Below are positions 19,232 through 28,582 of a DNA stretch of 34,896 nt, one piece after another. Location: NCBI GenBank assembly GCA_021731025.1, contig JAKFYD010000067.1, positions 1 to 34,896 of the forward strand, read 5' to 3'. Position 1 is the stretch's first letter; each line of letters starts with the position of its first letter. A program made the translations under genes and the position numbers. The notes beneath the pieces were generated by a model. That model was not told the origin of the DNA. It saw only the letters and a list, made by a program, of their open reading frames with translations, and did no database searches. This DNA comes from Pseudobdellovibrionaceae bacterium (lineage in GTDB: Bacteria; Bdellovibrionota; Bdellovibrionia; Bdellovibrionales; Bdellovibrionaceae).

Positions 19232-21799
19232 ATGAAATCCTTTTCGAAAATCTTAGGCTTTGTTTTATCTTTTCAATTAGCTTTCTCGCCCTTAGCGCAA
19301 GCTCAGGTCGCCTCCGACGGTTCAGAAATTGGAGAACACAACCCCGGTCCAGATCCATCGACTCCAGAGGGGCGCGAATTGATCGACATCTACGCTGAAC
19401 TTCCTGAGTATATGGAAATGTCTGATGCATTAATGGAATCCCAAAAGTTTCGCTATATTTTTGGAATGATGATGAGTCGAACTTACTTTGAAAAAAACGC
19501 GGTTAAAGTTCTCTTTATCGGCCAAGATGCCACTCACATTGCTGAAGCCGCGAAACAACCTGGAACTTCGGGCTTTGGAGCTCGCGTACAAAGCATCGGA
19601 AACTACTTTGGTGTTGATCAAAGCGTAGCGACAACCAACGCTTTTCTATCCACTATCAAAGGACAATATGGAGCTTTTGACCACGTCATGGCTGAAGAGA
19701 ATAAGAAAGTACTTCGCCCCAAGGATGAAAAAATTATTCTTGAAATTGGCCAAGACGGAAAAGCGCAAGTTCGTCAATCGGCATTTGTTGACAGTGAACT
19801 CTGGGCAATTGCCAATGGTCGTGACAGCGAAATCCTTATAAAACGCGAAGCCTTCTGGGAGTGGATGATTAAAAATAATCCTGAGGCTTTAAGTTTAGTC
19901 ATTCTCTTTGGCGGAGCTGCCCGTGACGCTTGGGCTGAATTTCTTATTGGTCGTGGAGCTAAAGTGGGAACAAAGCTGGATCCTGAGCGATTGAAGAATA
20001 TTCAAGTGCCAGAAACCAAAATGGTTTATGCTGGGGGGAATAATGAATTCCCAGTTCCTGTAAATAAAGATGGTAAAGACATTTATGAAATCTTAGTTGG
20101 CCGCAAACTCGATTACTCAAAACCCAATGAACAAAAGTTAGCCGTTGATACATTAAAAAAAGCCGGTCAGAAAGCTATTGATATGATGGTATTCACTGGT
20201 GGTGGAATTTATGGCAGCGGTATTTTAAATGCGGCTCAATTAGGTGGCTACGACCTAAACAATGTTGAGATTAATGGTAAAAAAACAAATTCCATAAAGG
20301 GACTCAGACTTTCTGATGGCACTTACGTTAAACATGATATTGGTTTTACAACCTCGACTCATCCAAGCGCATTAAGCAAACTGACTCCTCAAATGGCTTC
20401 GATAGAATTAAAAAAGTCTTTTGCTCGATTAAACGATCTTAAAAAGCAAGGTTGGAAAGTAGAACCTGATCTCGATAGCAATGGTCGTCCTCGTCGAAAT
20501 GCTTGGCATGAAGGTGAAGATTATAAATATGGACGTGCTGATATTCGCGCAGGCTATTTTGAATTCGGTGCTCCAGATGATCGCCGGGTATCCCGTGCTG
20601 ATGCCAGTCGCTTAGATGCACAAACGATCGTCGCAGGGTCTCGCGACCGAGTTAAATTTGATAGCAAACTCATAGAAGCTGCAAAAGCAGCGATGCCTTC
20701 GACACCTAAAAATCCTGATGACCTTTGGTCCGTGCGCCAGCGACAAAAAGAAACTCGCTATATTTTTGACCGTGGCCCCGGCCGCGAGATCGCAAAATTA
20801 ATCATGTCGAACTTAGATCGAGAAAAAATCTTTGAGCCTAAGCCCGGAATGAAAGTTATGAGCGGCAGCAACGACGTCACTTTCGAAACTCATGGTATCG
20901 ATGCCTACTACACGAAAACTCATCCAGGCACTGGCTTCTTCGGAATTCACCGCGGGAGCTTTGAAAAATCTCGTGCGCTTATCTTGGCAGATCCTCATGG
21001 ACTTGATGATTGGAATACAGCTCGTGCAATGACGGGAGCTCGTGGTCAGTATTTGAATGGACTTATGAACGACATCGGATTTGGTGAAGATTATCTTGTC
21101 CTGAAAACTGTTCCGGTGGGAATGGATGGAGCAACGGCCGAAGAATGGGAAGTTGTTCGCGAAAGAACAGAATCTTACCGTGAAGTGGCCATCAAAGAGG
21201 CCTTAAAAAGAAGCCCTGTGGAAATGATTTTTACTGATGGTGAAATTGCCAAAGCTGAAATGACACGGATTTTAGCAAAGCTAAAAATTAAAAATATTTC
21301 CGTTGTGAATATTCAACGCAAAGGAATGGATCCTGCTTCAGGAATTAAAGAAGCTGGTCTTGCTTTGAAAGAAAATTTTAAACAGTTAAAAAATTCGACG
21401 ATCAGTGGAAAAATGTTAGATATCCCCCGCTCTCACTTAACTTGGTGGAGTCGTTTGTGGGAAGGCACCAGTGGTGATCGTGTGATTGATGCTACTGGAA
21501 AACACCGTGGTGGAGTTCGCGCTCTTGTGGCGCCGACGTGGGTTGTTCGCCAAAAGGTAAAGCCTTTACCTGCAGTAACGAAATCAATTGAGAAATTAAA
21601 AGAGCTCTTTGAAAGAATGAAAATTCGTTTTGACAGCGAACCCATCGATAAATTTATTGAGCGCAAACAGGTCAATTGGAAGTACTCTGCGAATAAAATT
21701 ACACCTCAATCTGCGACGATTATTGATCTTGTAGAGCATGCGAAAGCAGCTCCAAAGCTTGCACCGACTGGTTCCTGCCCCGCCGTCTTTGTAAAATAA
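19232..21799 (+). CDS. Exported protein with two uracil-DNA-glycosylase-like folds
   Basis: An 855-residue protein with a signal peptide (VLSFQLAFSPLAQAQ; cleavage near AQA). Fold 1 (about 60-400) shows the UDG superfamily order: VKVLFIGQDA at about 90, GTSGFGARVQSIGNYFGV, TTNAFLS at about 133, LVILFGGAARDAW at about 222 and THPSALS at about 375, which fits motif B (HPS). Fold 2 (about 555-745) repeats it: ALILADPHGLDDWNTARAMTG, ARGQYLNGLMNDIGF, KTVPVG, VEMIFTDGEIAKAEM and SHLTWW near 734. The 4Fe-4S cysteines of family 4/5 are absent and motif A differs (GQDATHIAEAA; ADPHG instead of GExPG), so activity on uracil is unproved. Shine-Dalgarno GAGG precedes the ATG. Superfamily assignment is motif-based. 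Confidence 0.7.
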   Translation: MKSFSKILGFVLSFQLAFSPLAQAQVASDGSEIGEHNPGPDPSTPEGRELIDIYAELPEYMEMSDALMESQKFRYIFGMMMSRTYFEKNAVKVLFIGQDATHIAEAAKQPGTSGFGARVQSIGNYFGVDQSVATTNAFLSTIKGQYGAFDHVMAEENKKVLRPKDEKIILEIGQDGKAQVRQSAFVDSELWAIANGRDSEILIKREAFWEWMIKNNPEALSLVILFGGAARDAWAEFLIGRGAKVGTKLDPERLKNIQVPETKMVYAGGNNEFPVPVNKDGKDIYEILVGRKLDYSKPNEQKLAVDTLKKAGQKAIDMMVFTGGGIYGSGILNAAQLGGYDLNNVEINGKKTNSIKGLRLSDGTYVKHDIGFTTSTHPSALSKLTPQMASIELKKSFARLNDLKKQGWKVEPDLDSNGRPRRNAWHEGEDYKYGRADIRAGYFEFGAPDDRRVSRADASRLDAQTIVAGSRDRVKFDSKLIEAAKAAMPSTPKNPDDLWSVRQRQKETRYIFDRGPGREIAKLIMSNLDREKIFEPKPGMKVMSGSNDVTFETHGIDAYYTKTHPGTGFFGIHRGSFEKSRALILADPHGLDDWNTARAMTGARGQYLNGLMNDIGFGEDYLVLKTVPVGMDGATAEEWEVVRERTESYREVAIKEALKRSPVEMIFTDGEIAKAEMTRILAKLKIKNISVVNIQRKGMDPASGIKEAGLALKENFKQLKNSTISGKMLDIPRSHLTWWSRLWEGTSGDRVIDATGKHRGGVRALVAPTWVVRQKVKPLPAVTKSIEKLKELFERMKIRFDSEPIDKFIERKQVNWKYSANKITPQSATIIDLVEHAKAAPKLAPTGSCPAVFVK

Positions 21800-21840: not shown

Positions 21841-21871
21841 CGTCAAAGCCGCGCCAAAAGCGGCTTTGACG
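21841..21871. repeat. Perfect 12-bp hairpin between the UDG-like and nuclease genes
   Basis: CGTCAAAGCCGC (21841-21852) and GCGGCTTTGACG (21860-21871) are exact reverse complements around a 7-base loop GCCAAAA. The G+C-rich stem is long enough to be an RNA hairpin, but no T-run follows on either strand, so it is not a classic terminator. It may be a transcript-processing or attenuating structure, or a DNA-level repeat. Confidence 0.6.
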
Positions 21872-21911
21872 GCGCGCAATAACGCCCTTCTTGGTGGACA
21901 TTCTTAAATTC

Positions 21912-22832
21912 ATGAAATTGAATGGCGATATGAAATACAAAAAACTCATATTAATATTCATTTTATTTCCAATGTCAGCCTTCAGCTTTGGACCGATTGC
22001 TCATCGATCCGTTGGCTTAATTGCTCAAGCTAATCTGACACCGAAAGCTCAAGCTGTTGTTCGCCAGCTTTTAGGACAAGAGAGTTTAGCTGATGTTTCG
22101 AACTGGGCTGACCAAGTTCGCGGAGACGGTAAAGTCTATCAGCAAGCCAATTGGTACCACTTTGAAAAAATGAATGATGGCATCAACTACATTAACAACT
22201 TAAAAGCGATGCCCCAAGAACAAAGACTCAAAGGCGGAGTGGTCACTGCGGTCTTAGCAGCTTTCGATGCCATTCGCGCCCAAAACACACCTCCTCAAGA
22301 ACGGAAAGACGCTCTTAAATTTTTGGTTCACTTTGTCGGTGATATTCATCAGCCTCTTCACACAGGAAGAAATGAAGACATGGGTGGAAACAAAATCGAA
22401 GTGAATTGGTATGGCTACCCATCGAATTTACACGCGGTTTGGGACTCGGGCCTTATCATCGTTGGCCATAAAGATATTTTAAACCCCGCTGCTCCTGTCG
22501 AAAATCAAAGCGTAATTTACGCTCAATATTTAGTCGGAAAATTTGCTAAAGCCCCCGTTGATTTCAGCATGAATGTCGAACTGTGGTTGAATGAATCAAT
22601 TTCAATAAGGCCCGCGGCCTACAATCCAACTTATGCAACGAACCAACCTCTGTATTTATCCCAACAACTTCCTGTCGTTGATTTTCGAGTCTACCAAGCA
22701 GGAATTCGTTTAGCTGCGGCCTTGAACCAGATATTTGGTCAAGCCCCTATGCAAACGGTTGAAAAAGACATGTGGCAAAGAGTAACCTCGGTGCTTGGTG
22801 ATTTCCGCAAGTACATTTTCTTTAGACCATGA
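21912..22832 (+). CDS. Exported S1/P1 nuclease
   Basis: A zinc nuclease that degrades single-stranded DNA/RNA and removes 3'-phosphates. After a signal peptide (LILIFILFPMSAFS) come the family metal-binding blocks in order: FGPIAHRSVGLIA, DVSNWADQVRG, WYHFEKMNDG, HFVGDIHQPLHTGR, DMGGNKIEVNWYG, NLHAVWDSGL. The mature end is expected near Phe where the family has an N-terminal Trp that ligates zinc, an unusual change. I chose 21912 as start; the ATG at 21930 and the TTG at 21891 are also possible, none with an ideal Shine-Dalgarno. The end overlaps the next gene by 4 bases (ATGA). The exported location suits degradation of prey or environmental nucleic acids. Confidence 0.9.
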   Translation: MKLNGDMKYKKLILIFILFPMSAFSFGPIAHRSVGLIAQANLTPKAQAVVRQLLGQESLADVSNWADQVRGDGKVYQQANWYHFEKMNDGINYINNLKAMPQEQRLKGGVVTAVLAAFDAIRAQNTPPQERKDALKFLVHFVGDIHQPLHTGRNEDMGGNKIEVNWYGYPSNLHAVWDSGLIIVGHKDILNPAAPVENQSVIYAQYLVGKFAKAPVDFSMNVELWLNESISIRPAAYNPTYATNQPLYLSQQLPVVDFRVYQAGIRLAAALNQIFGQAPMQTVEKDMWQRVTSVLGDFRKYIFFRP

Positions 22833-23500
22833 GAAAAACTTTTGCTCTCGGCCTTATCCTAGCAAATCTGTTTAGCTTTGCCTGTCAAACATCGGCCTTT
22901 AAAAATACTTCTCTCTATCCTGAACATTGGTGGTCCCCTGTTTCTCGCGAAGATGCGCCCGATTGGGAAATACTTCCCCAGGACGCTGCTCGGGGCGAAG
23001 TTATTCTGTCGAAGAGAAATGAATTGGGGATATTATCCAACTTTGCGGCAACTCCATTCGAGTTTCATGGAAAGACCTACGCTAGCGTTGAAGGCTTTTG
23101 GCAAATGATGAAGTACCCTGAAGGCCCCGATGATTTACGCCGAAAGAATCCAAAAATACTTTGGCCTTACACGCGAGAACAAGTTGCGCAGATGACAGCT
23201 TTCGAGGCGAAAAAAGCGGGAAGCTTAGCGAACGCCAATATGAAGATTCTAAAAATCAATTGGGTCACCTTTGAAGGAAAAAAATTAATTTACCGTGAGC
23301 CAAAAAAGGGCGAGTTCTACCAGCTGATTTACGAAGCCGAGTGGAGCAAACTCAAACAAAATCCCCAGGTGCGTGAAATTCTTTTAAAAACCGGTGACTT
23401 AAAACTTCGTCCTGATCATAAGGTTGAGGCCGAGGCCGCTCCGGCCTGGCGCTATTATGAGATATGGATGGAAATCCGCGCCCAACTGCAATCTCCCTAA
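22829..23500 (+). CDS. Exported NADAR-type (YbiA-like) N-glycosidase
   Basis: A 223-residue protein. After a hydrophobic N-terminal segment ending in SFACQTSA (signal peptide; the cysteine could be a non-standard lipobox) comes a NADAR/YbiA domain at about 60-215: LSKRNELGILSNFAATPFEF, GKTYASVEGFWQMMKYP, REQVAQMTAFEAKKAG, YEAEWSKLKQNPQVREILLKTG, APAWRYYEIWMEIR. NADAR enzymes cleave N-glycosidic bonds in riboflavin intermediates or remove ADP-ribose from guanine in DNA/RNA; they are normally cytoplasmic, so an exported copy is odd. It overlaps the S1/P1 nuclease gene by 4 bases and is surely co-translated. The usual DxxWG near the C-terminus is replaced, so the exact substrate is open. Confidence 0.75.
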   Translation: MRKTFALGLILANLFSFACQTSAFKNTSLYPEHWWSPVSREDAPDWEILPQDAARGEVILSKRNELGILSNFAATPFEFHGKTYASVEGFWQMMKYPEGPDDLRRKNPKILWPYTREQVAQMTAFEAKKAGSLANANMKILKINWVTFEGKKLIYREPKKGEFYQLIYEAEWSKLKQNPQVREILLKTGDLKLRPDHKVEAEAAPAWRYYEIWMEIRAQLQSP

Positions 23501-23965: not shown

Positions 23966-24439
23966 TTAGAATTCAATATTTGCCGGTGATCGGCTTTGAA
24001 ATTTAAACTTATGCGCCACCTGAACATCTTCTTGTAAGGGTGGCGGCGAAAAAGCTGCTGATTTCACTTGATGAAAAACGCAGTTTTCCAAGTTTTCGTT
24101 CTTTAAGTCGGAGCCGAGCAATTTAAGATCGGTTACATTTCCATCTTTATTGATAATCCAACTGACCCGAATAGCTCCTCGAGTTTTTTCGGGTTCGGTT
24201 TTCAAAAAACTCTCATAACACTCTTCAATAGCCTGATTTTTTTCTGCTAGAATCGATCGCACAATTTCATTGCGATAGTTTTCGACTAATAATTTGGGAT
24301 CATTCTTTTTTACGAACTTGGTCTTCACCGGTTCGATCTTTGGTTTTCCTAATTTAATAGTAACGATATATGCGGCACTTGCAACATTGCCCATAAATAA
24401 AAATACAATCAGAGCTCGAACTGAAAATACGTCCCTCAT
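23966..24439 (-). CDS. Exported AgmX/TonB-C-like protein
   Basis: A 157-residue protein with a signal or anchor segment (VRALIVFLFMGNVASA) and one AgmX/PglI C-terminal domain: IEECYESFLKTEPEKTRGAIRVSWIINKDGNVTDLKLLGSDLKNENLENCVFHQVKSAAF. It is a short relative of the C-terminal half of the gene at 18294, without the FecR part. The pattern 'C...L...p...G.v.v.w.I...G.v......s.l.n..l..C' is kept. AGGAG-like GGGAG lies 6 bases before the ATG. Two operator-like palindromes lie upstream. Function in the periplasm is not known. Confidence 0.7.
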   Translation of the reverse strand: MRDVFSVRALIVFLFMGNVASAAYIVTIKLGKPKIEPVKTKFVKKNDPKLLVENYRNEIVRSILAEKNQAIEECYESFLKTEPEKTRGAIRVSWIINKDGNVTDLKLLGSDLKNENLENCVFHQVKSAAFSPPPLQEDVQVAHKFKFQSRSPANIEF

Positions 24440-24587: not shown

Positions 24588-25994
24588 TTAATCTTTACCA
24601 CACAGACTTGTGTCTTTTTTAACTAAAGCTTGCGGAGATCCTTCGATCCTTCTTGTCATTGAACCTTGGCTTTCGTCTGCAGACGTACAGCTGGGTATAT
24701 CTATCACGGACTGAGCGGCAGAACCTAGACCATTTCCTGTGCTCAATAGAGAAAGCTGACCTTTCCATCGGTCACCTGATTTGGTGAGACTAATCTGGTA
24801 ATTGCTTTCTGATTTTTTAAAGAAGTTGGTCTTTCGCAGTAGACGGAATTCAGCATCAAAATGCAAAGGCATCGCATACTTAACTTCACCGGGGTAAACA
24901 ACCAGAAGTTTATTCGGTGATTCGACTCTTACACAGCGGGGAACTGCGCGTTTAAGTTCCTGAGCCATGTCCGTTTGAAATTCATAAATGAAATTCCGCG
25001 GTAACCGGTCAGTCCATTCTTTGTTCACCTTAAGTTCGCCGGCGCTTGCTGTTGAGGAATCGAGACTGATGCAATCAGTGATTCTTAAATTTTCTGCAGC
25101 TGCACATTTTTCCCGTTCGTAACGGCCGTTCACGGGATGGGGAACACAAGCCAGATTTGTCAGAATAATATTTGGAATTAATTTATCGGGCATCTGGGTA
25201 CCGACCGGAGCCAGCCGTTTCATTTCCTGCAGCTGTTTTTCTTTATAAGCACTTTGTAAAATCCCGACGACTTGATTTTTTTTATCTAAAACTGGAGATC
25301 CTGAATTCCCCTCGGCCGAATGACAATTAATGGCTGCACTTGTTTTCGACCAAGCACTTGCACTTGAAAAATTCAGAGCGGAATTTAAAGCCGAGACACA
25401 GGCTTCAGATTGCAAACGAGCACCTTTTTCCCACGGAACAACTTTCACAAGACGAAGCTGTTGCCTGTTAGGAATTCCCGTTTGAGAAATACCGAGTGGA
25501 GCAATTCCCGTGCGAGCGATTTCAAAAAAGGCATAATCAGGTAAAATCTTAGTGGGATCAAATTGACTATAGTTGAGAAGACGCTGACAGGGAAAGACAT
25601 CGGGTTGCCCAGGTCCACGTCGCACAAATTTAATCGCCATCAGCCCAGCACAAGACATTTGATTTTGTTTAATAATGTCGGGCACGCAGTGACTGTTCGT
25701 CGCAACGATATTGTCTTGCACTAAAAATCCAGTGCACTTAAGGACTTGAGGTTTAGGAAAGCTATTGAGATTTTCTGCGCTGTAAACCATGCCGACATTC
25801 TCGGGGCAAGCGGCTGGCGAGTCGCAAACCAAAGGAGCTGTGCGAAGTTCATTTTCGACAGAAGTGAATGTCTGTGTTCCTGAATGAGGTTGGTAGAGAG
25901 GTCTATTGGTAGAAGGTCCTGAACAAGCTCCAAGAAAAGCCATCGCTAGGAACAGAAAAACCATCATTTTTTCAGCCGCAAATTTTTTATTCAT
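24588..25994 (-). CDS. Trypsin-like serine protease lipoprotein
   Basis: A 468-residue protein whose signal peptide ends in a good lipobox (AFLGAC, C24), so it is expected to be an outer- or inner-membrane lipoprotein. The chymotrypsin-fold triad is visible: H102 in TNSHC, D153 in LPDYAFFE and S231 in GNSGSPV. It is followed by about 200 residues without a recognised domain (from about 300 on). Several cysteines suggest disulfides. It may process envelope or prey proteins; the target is unknown. A TATAAC on the minus strand at 26008-26003 lies only 8 bases before the ATG, so transcription may start almost at the start codon. It is divergent from the Ig-repeat lipoprotein at 26198. Confidence 0.82.
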   Translation of the reverse strand: MNKKFAAEKMMVFLFLAMAFLGACSGPSTNRPLYQPHSGTQTFTSVENELRTAPLVCDSPAACPENVGMVYSAENLNSFPKPQVLKCTGFLVQDNIVATNSHCVPDIIKQNQMSCAGLMAIKFVRRGPGQPDVFPCQRLLNYSQFDPTKILPDYAFFEIARTGIAPLGISQTGIPNRQQLRLVKVVPWEKGARLQSEACVSALNSALNFSSASAWSKTSAAINCHSAEGNSGSPVLDKKNQVVGILQSAYKEKQLQEMKRLAPVGTQMPDKLIPNIILTNLACVPHPVNGRYEREKCAAAENLRITDCISLDSSTASAGELKVNKEWTDRLPRNFIYEFQTDMAQELKRAVPRCVRVESPNKLLVVYPGEVKYAMPLHFDAEFRLLRKTNFFKKSESNYQISLTKSGDRWKGQLSLLSTGNGLGSAAQSVIDIPSCTSADESQGSMTRRIEGSPQALVKKDTSLCGKD

Positions 25995-26197: not shown

Positions 26198-28582
26198 ATG
26201 AACAAGATGAACTTACCACGTTCACTCACGTGGCTTGCAGTGACCGTAGGTCTTTTAATTGCCTTTCAAAACTGTGGACAACCTGGCGAACTTGCTTTGA
26301 CCAGAAATCCATCGACGGATAACGTTCTGGCTACACCCAATCCTACTCCGGGCCCAACGCCAGTACCTACTCCAGATCCAATCGCTCTCATTGTGAATCC
26401 AACGTTGACCATTAATAATGGAGCACCGTTCACAAATTCGAAAAATGTGACTTTGCAAATTTCAGCCGTTGGTGCCGAGAGAATGCAAATCTCGAAAGAA
26501 GCTGATTGCGGTAAAGAAGACGAAAATTGGGAATCTTATGCCCAAAATAAATCTTATGTGCTGACTGATGGCAATAATAGCAATTCTGTTTATGCCCGTT
26601 TTCAAAAAACTGGAGCTCCAAATACAGCATGTATTAAAGCTTCGATAGTGCATGATGATGTGGCTCCAACTTTAGCGGTGACGAAGAATGCGGATGCTGT
26701 GACATCGGCTGCGAATGTTCAAGTGGGCTTCATGGCGCAAGATGCTGGTAGCGGTATTTCTGCTGTCTACTGCAAACGCGGCACTAATGCAGAGGCTATT
26801 TGTAATAACACTTTTGACTTTGCAGGTTTGGCTGAAGGTGCTCATGGTGTTGTTATTCGTGCCATTGATAAAGCCGGCAATGAATCTTCTCCTGCATCTG
26901 TAAATTTTATCGTCGACCGTACGGCTCCCGTTATCACAATCAATGGACCAACTGGAATCATTGGCGCAACCAAAGTCGCTTACCAAATTACAGTTGTTGA
27001 AGCCAACGGATTAAAATCTGTTGAATGTCGCTTGAGTCCAAAAGAAGCTAACTACAAAGATTGCTCAACTTTAAAAGCTGAATACGATGCCTTAACTTCA
27101 GGAGCTTATACCTTTGAAGTTAAAGTTGTCGACAAGGCTGGAAACGCAGCCAGCAAATCTCAGACAGTGACGATCGATGCGAGCATGCCGACCGTGACCA
27201 TCACGAAATCTCCTGCTGCTATTGGCAATGTGAAAAATGTTGGTTTTGAATTCACAGGAATGAGTGGAACAAAACCCATCACGAAATTTAAATGTGCTAT
27301 CGACAACGCCGTATTGTCGACTTGTACTTCACCCATCGCTTACTCGAATTTAACTGACAAAAGTTACACATTCTCGGTCATGGGGACAAATGATGTGAAT
27401 GTCGATTCAGCTGTACAAAAATACACCTTCGTTGTCGATACTGTGGCTCCGACAGTGAAAATTGTTTCTGCTCCCAGCGGAACGACAAAAGACAAAAATG
27501 TTGTCATTATCTTGGATGCGACTGATATCAATGGAATTAAATCCATCGAATGTACTCTTGATGGAGTTGTTTCCAATTGCTCGAGCAAAACGGCAACTTA
27601 CACTTTGCCCGACGGAACTCACACTTTTACAGCTCGCGCGACTGACAATGCTGGGAATACAGCAACAACGGCTCCTATCACTTTCAGAGTTGATACAACA
27701 CCGGATTCAGCCATCATTGCGAATATGGCAACAAATCCTGTGAAGGAAGGTACGACAGGAACTATGAATGTCAGTTTGACATTGGTAACTGGTGCTTACT
27801 ACAGCTGTAAAACAGTTGCTGGCAATGTTGAAGTGGTCAAGGGCGCTATCACTGGCACTTCGGCTTCAGTAAATTTTACTGTTAGCGAAGACATCAAATG
27901 TACTGTTGCGGGTAAAGATAAAAACAATGCAGACATTTCAAAAATCGTCTTGGCTGAAGTGGGTTGCGGCAACCGCGTTAAAGACGGAAATCGTTGTACT
28001 GACTTTAAGTGTTTGAAAATGGTTGAATTGCCTTACAGCAAAAAATTCACTGTACCTAAACGGACAACTGAAGGTCTTTGCTATGCGATGAAGCTTTTTG
28101 ATCCGATTGCAAATAGCGGTTCAAGTTTGAATAAAGAATTGGATTCAACTGTTGTTTCGCGTGATCACGACAGATCAGGAATGAATTTAAGAAATCCATA
28201 TGTACTGGATCGTGATCTTCTTAACTTCATTCTTGAAGGAAAACGGATTGCAAAACTTTCTGGTGGAGCAAATATCACTTCATCCATTAAAGTTGATAAC
28301 TTTGTCCTTGTCGGCTTGTACCCTGATGCTATTCAACCTGTGACTGCACATTACACGGCACAAGGGACTTTAGATTCTACAGTAACTTCGGCCCAAACTC
28401 ACATCCTGCTGAACAATCAGCCTGTTCCTTTGAAATCTTTCGGTCCTATGGGAACCGCGACTGTAGCTCCGATTGAAATCATCAGTGAAGCTGATGAAAA
28501 TTTAGGATACATGTTAGATCTGCGCGCCTTAGATTGTGGCGGAGCCAGAGAGCTTTCCAATATTTATCTGATCTTCCAGTAA
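26198..28582 (+). CDS. Large Ig-like-repeat lipoprotein
   Basis: A 794-residue surface protein. The signal peptide ends in IAFQNC (C26), a lipobox of the FQN-C type rather than the classic LAGC; a proline-rich linker (NPTPGPTPVPTPDP) follows. Then at least four Ig-like (Big-type) repeats of about 90 residues recur, each with APVITINGP-like starts and DKAGN- or DNAGN-type turns (at about 224, 314 and 485), and cysteine pairs at similar places. The C-terminal 200 residues begin with a Cys-rich turn (VGCGNRVKDGNRCTDF) and form another domain with no family I recognise. A GGGGAA Shine-Dalgarno lies near the ATG. Likely an adhesin or cell-surface scaffold, inferred from architecture. Confidence 0.8.
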   Translation: MNKMNLPRSLTWLAVTVGLLIAFQNCGQPGELALTRNPSTDNVLATPNPTPGPTPVPTPDPIALIVNPTLTINNGAPFTNSKNVTLQISAVGAERMQISKEADCGKEDENWESYAQNKSYVLTDGNNSNSVYARFQKTGAPNTACIKASIVHDDVAPTLAVTKNADAVTSAANVQVGFMAQDAGSGISAVYCKRGTNAEAICNNTFDFAGLAEGAHGVVIRAIDKAGNESSPASVNFIVDRTAPVITINGPTGIIGATKVAYQITVVEANGLKSVECRLSPKEANYKDCSTLKAEYDALTSGAYTFEVKVVDKAGNAASKSQTVTIDASMPTVTITKSPAAIGNVKNVGFEFTGMSGTKPITKFKCAIDNAVLSTCTSPIAYSNLTDKSYTFSVMGTNDVNVDSAVQKYTFVVDTVAPTVKIVSAPSGTTKDKNVVIILDATDINGIKSIECTLDGVVSNCSSKTATYTLPDGTHTFTARATDNAGNTATTAPITFRVDTTPDSAIIANMATNPVKEGTTGTMNVSLTLVTGAYYSCKTVAGNVEVVKGAITGTSASVNFTVSEDIKCTVAGKDKNNADISKIVLAEVGCGNRVKDGNRCTDFKCLKMVELPYSKKFTVPKRTTEGLCYAMKLFDPIANSGSSLNKELDSTVVSRDHDRSGMNLRNPYVLDRDLLNFILEGKRIAKLSGGANITSSIKVDNFVLVGLYPDAIQPVTAHYTAQGTLDSTVTSAQTHILLNNQPVPLKSFGPMGTATVAPIEIISEADENLGYMLDLRALDCGGARELSNIYLIFQ

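Follow-up and report, generated by a model that had tools for sequence, protein, structure and literature searches.

What would a bacterium do with an exported protein that carries two UDG-superfamily domains, when DNA glycosylases are, to our knowledge, cytoplasmic or organellar repair enzymes? The question is raised by an open reading frame on the forward strand (19232..21799) of a 34,896-nucleotide stretch of a Pseudobdellovibrionaceae genome, the whole of which we call the window. From the ORF, its homologues and its matches to UDG profiles, we describe its 855-aa product, UDG2, as an exported tandem BdiUng-type protein of the UDG superfamily. We asked whether the gene is real and conserved, what its two halves are, where the protein is directed, which genes accompany it, and what the two domains could do.

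UDG2 is a conserved gene of Bdellovibrionota

The ORF is intact, running from an ATG at 19232 to a stop codon at 21797-21799, and a GAGG ribosome-binding site lies upstream of the start. Full-length homologues with 30–66% identity occur in Bdellovibrionota genomes (60 of the 291 genomes of the phylum, with 34 genomes counted across the order), and the presence of these homologues in many genomes, together with the ribosome-binding site, indicates a real, conserved gene. The source assembly is near-complete (3.49 Mb in 81 contigs), and the named relatives are MAGs of Bdellovibrionaceae or Bdellovibrionales. Searches of phage and plasmid sequences and of IMG/VR with UDG2 returned no relatives, nor did a plasmid search with a fragment of BdiUng. 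An ordinary family-1 Ung (GQDPYH, HPSPLS) is encoded elsewhere in the source genome, so UDG2 is not its housekeeping uracil repair enzyme.

UDG2 was absent from all sampled genomes of one genus, which we take to be that of the best-known predator, Bdellovibrio bacteriovorus, and to include its type genome (the member G004, presumably HD100). Nine sampled genomes of this presumed B. bacteriovorus genus carry a NADAR gene without UDG2, and G045, presumably Bdellovibrio exovorus, carries both. The absence from the presumed B. bacteriovorus genus suggests that predation as such does not depend on UDG2.

Both halves are BdiUng-type domains

Single-sequence searches with UDG2 (Pfam, NCBIfam, PHROGs, phmmer against the PDB) gave nothing usable, including no match to PF03167. 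A match to DUF6730 at residues 784-842 (E = 0.006, below the cut-off) was set aside as a chance match in the helical tail. A profile of 25 homologues matched the PDB entry for BdiUng, 5gn2 (E = 3.6e-19), while other UDGs trailed weakly, and 14 of the 25 family members individually matched the Pfam UDG family PF03167 (best 1.7e-7). In HHalign comparisons, the first domain (D1, residues 66-470; 19427..20641, forward strand) aligned with BdiUng at a probability of 98.5 (P = 3.1e-15), the second (D2, residues 560-778; 20909..21565, forward strand) at 96.6 (P = 5.2e-10), and the two with each other at P = 6.3e-6. In the homologue alignment, a stretch of about 110 aa inside D1 (residues ~255-365) stands out as an insertion specific to one clade. 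Within the order, neither domain exceeded a probability of 18.7 against Ung, UdgX-like or GQAP-type UDGs; among UDG families, both are thus nearest to BdiUng, with families 1, 4/5 and UdgX no closer.

Predicted structures bear on D2. The full-length AlphaFold model was built from four sequences and has a mean pLDDT of 41.7; its D1 region lies below 50 in large part, and the fold assignment of D1 rests on sequence profiles. For D2, the best-aligned part of the same model, VIA-align ranked 5gn2 first (Z 11.2, rmsd 3.9, 156 residues). A separate model of the D2 crop (pLDDT 65, core 70-90) retrieved 5gn2 first in Foldseek (E = 2.5e-6), followed by SMUG1 and family-4 UDGs, and aligned with 5gn2 in VIA-align at Z 10.4 and rmsd 4.6 over 169 residues. 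An earlier note on this DNA, made from the letters alone, had proposed two UDG-like blocks in one chain and a check by structure prediction and Foldseek, which for D2 returned a UDG fold. We conclude that both blocks are UDG-superfamily domains of the BdiUng type, homologous to each other. As a matter of anatomy, UDG2 very probably consists of two fused BdiUng-type domains that arose by internal duplication.

BdiUng (Blr0248, from Bradyrhizobium diazoefficiens) is the best profile match of both domains and the best predicted-fold match of D2. It has been reported to represent a new class of UDG, outside the classical six families, that accepts a broad range of substrates. UDG2 shares with it the order RG(R/S), strand, motif A, as well as the VN/TN strand, the YR helix, and the LGG/FGG or DG turn, and D1 additionally shares the GQD and the HP(T/S) motif. 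However, BdiUng is a single 272-residue domain, whereas UDG2 fuses two domains in an exported chain of 855 aa, in which a large insertion interrupts D1, the D1 motif is of the HPSALS type and D2 lacks the catalytic residues. BdiUng is said, in a paper from 2017, to be homodimeric; by analogy, UDG2 may then be a covalent pseudo-dimer. BdiUng also reportedly prefers single-stranded DNA (Chembazhi 2017). BdiUng-like enzymes have a wide specificity, with U derivatives, hypoxanthine and xanthine as possible substrates (PMC8307549).

Similarity to other UDG families is more limited. Family-1 UDGs (Ung; GQDPY/HPSPLS) resemble D1 in GQD and in HPSALS (the D1 motifs being GQDATH and HPSALS), but the profile match to the order's own Ungs is weak (the probability of 18.7 given above) and Ung is cytoplasmic. 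Family 4/5 UDGs have four Fe-S cysteines, whereas the only cysteine of UDG2 is Cys849, in agreement with the earlier reading that Fe-S cysteines are missing.

UDG2 and its partners carry export signals

UDG2 begins with a classic signal peptide, MKSFSKILGFVLSFQLAFSPLAQA/Q (residues 1-24; 19232..19303, forward strand), for which the sequence and the N-termini of homologues suggest cleavage at AQA/Q. A signal peptide had been proposed from the ORF alone, and the family bears it out: by a simple rule, 38 of 40 inspected homologues have export signals, 26 SPI-like and 12 SPII (lipobox), and one of the two homologues without a signal is cut by a contig end. We note that this rule was relaxed to tolerate a single Gln, Asn or His in the hydrophobic core, as the strict version missed obvious cases. 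Among 483 background ORFs of the same loci, the same rule assigned 184 to SPI/SPII and a further 21 as transmembrane-like; among five Ung controls, four had no signal and one was flagged as transmembrane-like. Switching between SPI and SPII within the UDG2 family suggests selection for export rather than for one exact site. Export signals were also found on the NADAR and amidohydrolase partners described below.

UDG2 co-occurs with an exported NADAR protein

In the window, UDG2 is followed by a perfect inverted repeat (12 bp, 7-base loop, no T tract; 21841..21871), a gene for an exported S1/P1-type nuclease (21930..22832, forward strand; Pfam E = 7.5e-53), and a gene for an exported NADAR/gp30.3-like protein, a putative lipoprotein (22829..23500, forward strand). 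The NADAR start overlaps the nuclease stop as ATGA, and for the nuclease itself an ATG start at 21930 was preferred over a TTG at 21891. The window also encodes an exported TonB_C-like small protein (23966-24439) beside a trypsin-like protease with a lipobox-type signal (24588-25994), and a 794-aa lipoprotein-like protein with several bacterial Ig-like repeats (26198-28582).

The NADAR assignment draws on matches to PF08719 and PF08010 (E = 6.5e-5 and 1.4e-5, respectively), neither of which reaches the gathering cut-off, and to TIGR02464 (E = 2.4e-7), as well as on co-occurrence and linkage with UDG2. Candidate catalytic residues, with roles assigned by analogy with PMC11543638, are kept in nearly all family members (Glu88 in 26/26, Lys95 in 24/26, Asp196 in 26/26, His197 in 25/26), and 23 of the 26 proteins have a signal peptide or lipobox by the simple rule. 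The partner belongs to the same superfamily as the NADAR, YbiA and phage gp30.3 hydrolases, but differs in being exported and in being tied to UDG2 rather than to DarT. Exported NADARs of this kind are a common feature of Bdellovibrionota, present in 84 of 282 genomes; some of these genomes lack UDG2, including those of the Bdellovibrio genus.

Across the order, NADAR was found in 43 genomes, 31 of the 34 with UDG2 compared with 12 of the 106 without (p = 6e-18), a statistic that, like those that follow, treats genomes or genera as independent and corrects only partly for phylogeny. The pattern held by genus (17/19 with UDG2 versus 4/47 without, p = 3e-10) and within one family (7/7 with UDG2 compared with 1 of about 19 lacking it, p = 1e-5; the genus total of 26 for this family is an approximate count). 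Phylum-wide, NADAR is present in at least 53–54 of the 60 UDG2 genomes. The two genes lie no more than 3 kb apart in seven genera from four families (the window, G136, G108, G076, G168, G211 and G292), where about 0.1 such cases would be expected by chance; in most genomes they are unlinked.

Other neighbours of UDG2 recur by lineage

A search for a conserved operon around UDG2 gave no single constant neighbour among the inspected loci; there are instead recurrent neighbours that differ by lineage. The S1/P1 nuclease gene adjoins UDG2 homologues in two further genera (G002 and G039), with a weaker association overall (19 of 34 UDG2 genomes compared with 18 of 106 others). An exported amidohydrolase (Pfam Amidohydro_1) was found in 15 of 34 UDG2 genomes compared with 3 of 106 others, and in ten inspected loci it lies no more than 1.6 kb from UDG2. 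Its family alignment has the pattern HxH...HxxE...H...D, which we take to mark the cytosine/guanine-deaminase-like class. Examples beside UDG2 or NADAR are L133:6320-8407, L167:7698-9806 and L039:11664-13859, and in G076 the order NADAR-amidohydrolase-UDG2 is contiguous. In G049, the amidohydrolase (L052:3479-6823) is part of a 1115-aa lipoprotein-like ORF. An exported EEP-family nuclease directly adjoins UDG2 in three loci of one family. A family of lipoproteins of ~280–330 aa, with no Pfam match in the one member scanned, adjoins the amidohydrolase in five UDG2 loci (L163:4897-5742, L166:8948-9835, L167:6819-7685, L039:10685-11677 and L047:9752-10660).

These associations could reflect lifestyle rather than a joint pathway, with UDG2, NADAR and the amidohydrolase being independent exported scavenging genes retained by the same kind of bacterium. 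The lack of linkage to the partners in most genomes is consistent with this, as is the weaker association shown by the S1/P1 nuclease too. However, UDG2 is almost never found without NADAR, also within single families, and the close linkage in seven genera greatly exceeds the chance expectation, so we regard coincidental co-inheritance as rather unlikely.

The strength of the NADAR association also raises the possibility that UDG2 and the exported NADAR are a repair or detoxification pair for ADP-ribosylated nucleic acids or NAD-related compounds, guarding the envelope or imported DNA against ADP-ribosylating toxins, with UDG2 excising or binding what NADAR leaves behind. NADARs hydrolyse guanine-ADP-ribose in DNA (PMC11543638, PMC11125620), and the repeated linkage and the near-complete retention of candidate catalytic residues in the 26 NADAR proteins fit such a role. 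Against this, DarT transferases show no association with UDG2 (2 of 34 UDG2 genomes compared with 11 of 106 others), so that a role of this NADAR as a DarT antitoxin was not supported either, and what UDG2 otherwise has beside it are nucleases and a deaminase-like amidohydrolase, not ADP-ribosyltransferases. We consider a dedicated ADP-ribose repair pair improbable. The window's genome does encode a DarT-family ADP-ribosyltransferase (G000:C58:19223-19789), unlinked to the NADAR gene.

D1 retains active-site residues that D2 has lost

In Ung, the motif-A catalytic acid, a base-contacting Asn and the motif-B His have established roles. We counted conservation at the corresponding positions over 58 UDG2 homologues, with UDG motifs as defined in PMC10359453. 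Motif A of D1 is GQDATH (residues 97-102; 19520..19537, forward strand), whose Asp99 takes the place of the catalytic Asp of GQDPY in the alignment. The motif is GQ[D/E] in 56 of the 58, with GQE in a distant clade, and the Pro-Tyr that usually follows GQD is missing. The equivalent of the base-recognition Asn is Asn136 (19637..19639, forward strand), aligned with VNTF of BdiUng, and the motif-B-like element is HPSALS (residues 377-382; 20360..20377, forward strand); Asn136 and His377-Pro378 are each conserved in at least 95% of the homologues.

In D2, the motif-A equivalent is ADPHGLDD (residues 586-593; 20987..21010, forward strand). The position of the catalytic Asp is Pro or Gln (ADP/ADQ), with the preceding Asp587 nearly invariant, the Asn position is mostly Lys or Arg, and the His is not conserved. 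Nonetheless, D2 has a near-invariant set of its own (Asp587, Ala599, Gly602, Gly605, Gln606, Pro628, Gly670, Ala673, Ile731, Gly745) and a conserved element, IPRSHL...WEGTSGDR (residues 731-750; 21422..21481, forward strand), apparent in both the alignment and the motif counts. Retention of the active-site set in D1 compared with its loss in D2 suggests that D1 is probably the catalytic half, as judged from residues, and the near-invariant residues of D2 point to strong selection on that domain for something else.

These counts refine what had been read from the sequence of this one protein. The earlier note took motif A to be divergent in both copies, which holds for the second (ADP/ADQ) but not for the first, where GQDATH is close to GQDPY and GQDPA. 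It was right about the His motif THPSALS in the first copy, as His377 is near-invariant. The SHLTWW that it proposed as a second His motif (residues 734-739) does fall within the conserved IPRxHL...WEGTSG element, but its His is replaced by Asp in the distant clade. Its suggestion that the reaction is new or lost would apply to D2 only, where the catalytic residues are gone, and not to D1, which keeps the motif-A acid, the Asn and the His.

A non-catalytic protein is nevertheless conceivable, with both domains capturing or sensing nucleobases, nucleotides or DNA outside the cytoplasm without cleaving them. The motif-A acid and the Asn are gone from D2, D1 lacks the pocket-shaping Pro-Tyr, and ligand-binding folds appear among the matches in the D2 fold list. 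Pure binding would not, however, need the D1 acid, Asn and His-Pro to be kept across such large divergence, and a binder seems unlikely to us. Repair or screening of natural-transformation DNA while it is single-stranded in the periplasm would suit the likely periplasmic or lipoprotein location of UDG2 and the reported preference of BdiUng for single-stranded DNA (Chembazhi 2017), but we recognised no competence gene beside UDG2 in the inspected loci (neighbours mostly read by eye), and transformation would suffer, not gain, from abasic sites that lack repair partners, which makes this explanation very improbable.

UDG2 as a putative extracytoplasmic N-glycosidase

All recurrent partners that have a family assignment are exported and, going by that family, have nucleic acids, nucleotides, bases or ADP-ribose as their substrates. 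The simplest explanation is a set of proteins that processes nucleic acids outside the cytoplasm and in which UDG2 would cleave N-glycosidic bonds. Exported NADAR, S1/P1 and EEP nucleases and a deaminase-like amidohydrolase as associates speak for an extracytoplasmic substrate that is a nucleic acid or a nucleotide. We infer a mechanism in which D1, acting outside the cytoplasm, would hydrolyse the N-glycosidic bond of a deaminated or otherwise modified base; this base would belong to a nucleotide or to DNA, the DNA being probably single-stranded. D2 would most likely form the other half of a pseudo-dimer, which would bind nucleic acid or a nucleotide ligand. UDG2 would work with the exported NADAR hydrolase, likewise a putative cleaver of N-glycosidic or ADP-ribose bonds. 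Further partners would differ between lineages (the exported deaminase-like amidohydrolase and the exported S1/P1 or EEP nucleases), the set together processing nucleic acids from prey or the surroundings. To this reading, that UDG2 is an extracytoplasmic DNA or nucleotide N-glycosidase in a nucleic-acid processing set, with D1 catalytic and D2 repurposed, we assign a probability of roughly 45%. More speculatively, and with considerable doubt, the secreted UDG2, the NADAR N-glycosidase or ADP-ribosyl hydrolase, and the nucleobase-deaminase-like amidohydrolase with the nucleases could form an undescribed extracytoplasmic base-excision module of Bdellovibrionota whose target would be DNA of prey or from the environment.

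Neither BdiUng-type UDGs nor NADARs are new in themselves; the tandem exported BdiUng-type protein, the exported NADARs and their association appear to be new. A literature search for which most subscription papers were out of reach found no tandem or secreted UDG, no exported NADAR and no association of UDG2 with NADAR, and the NADAR paper PMC11125620 makes no mention of "signal peptide".

If such a base-excision module exists, base excision chemistry would serve outside the cell for digestion or attack, not for genome repair. An exported, duplicated UDG in which one half has an intact active site and the other is repurposed would be a new use of the fold. The association with NADAR provides a testable partner for both proteins; stand-alone NADARs have no settled role. 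UDG2 also hints at a way in which predatory-type bacteria may deal with modified bases in the nucleic acids of their prey or environment.
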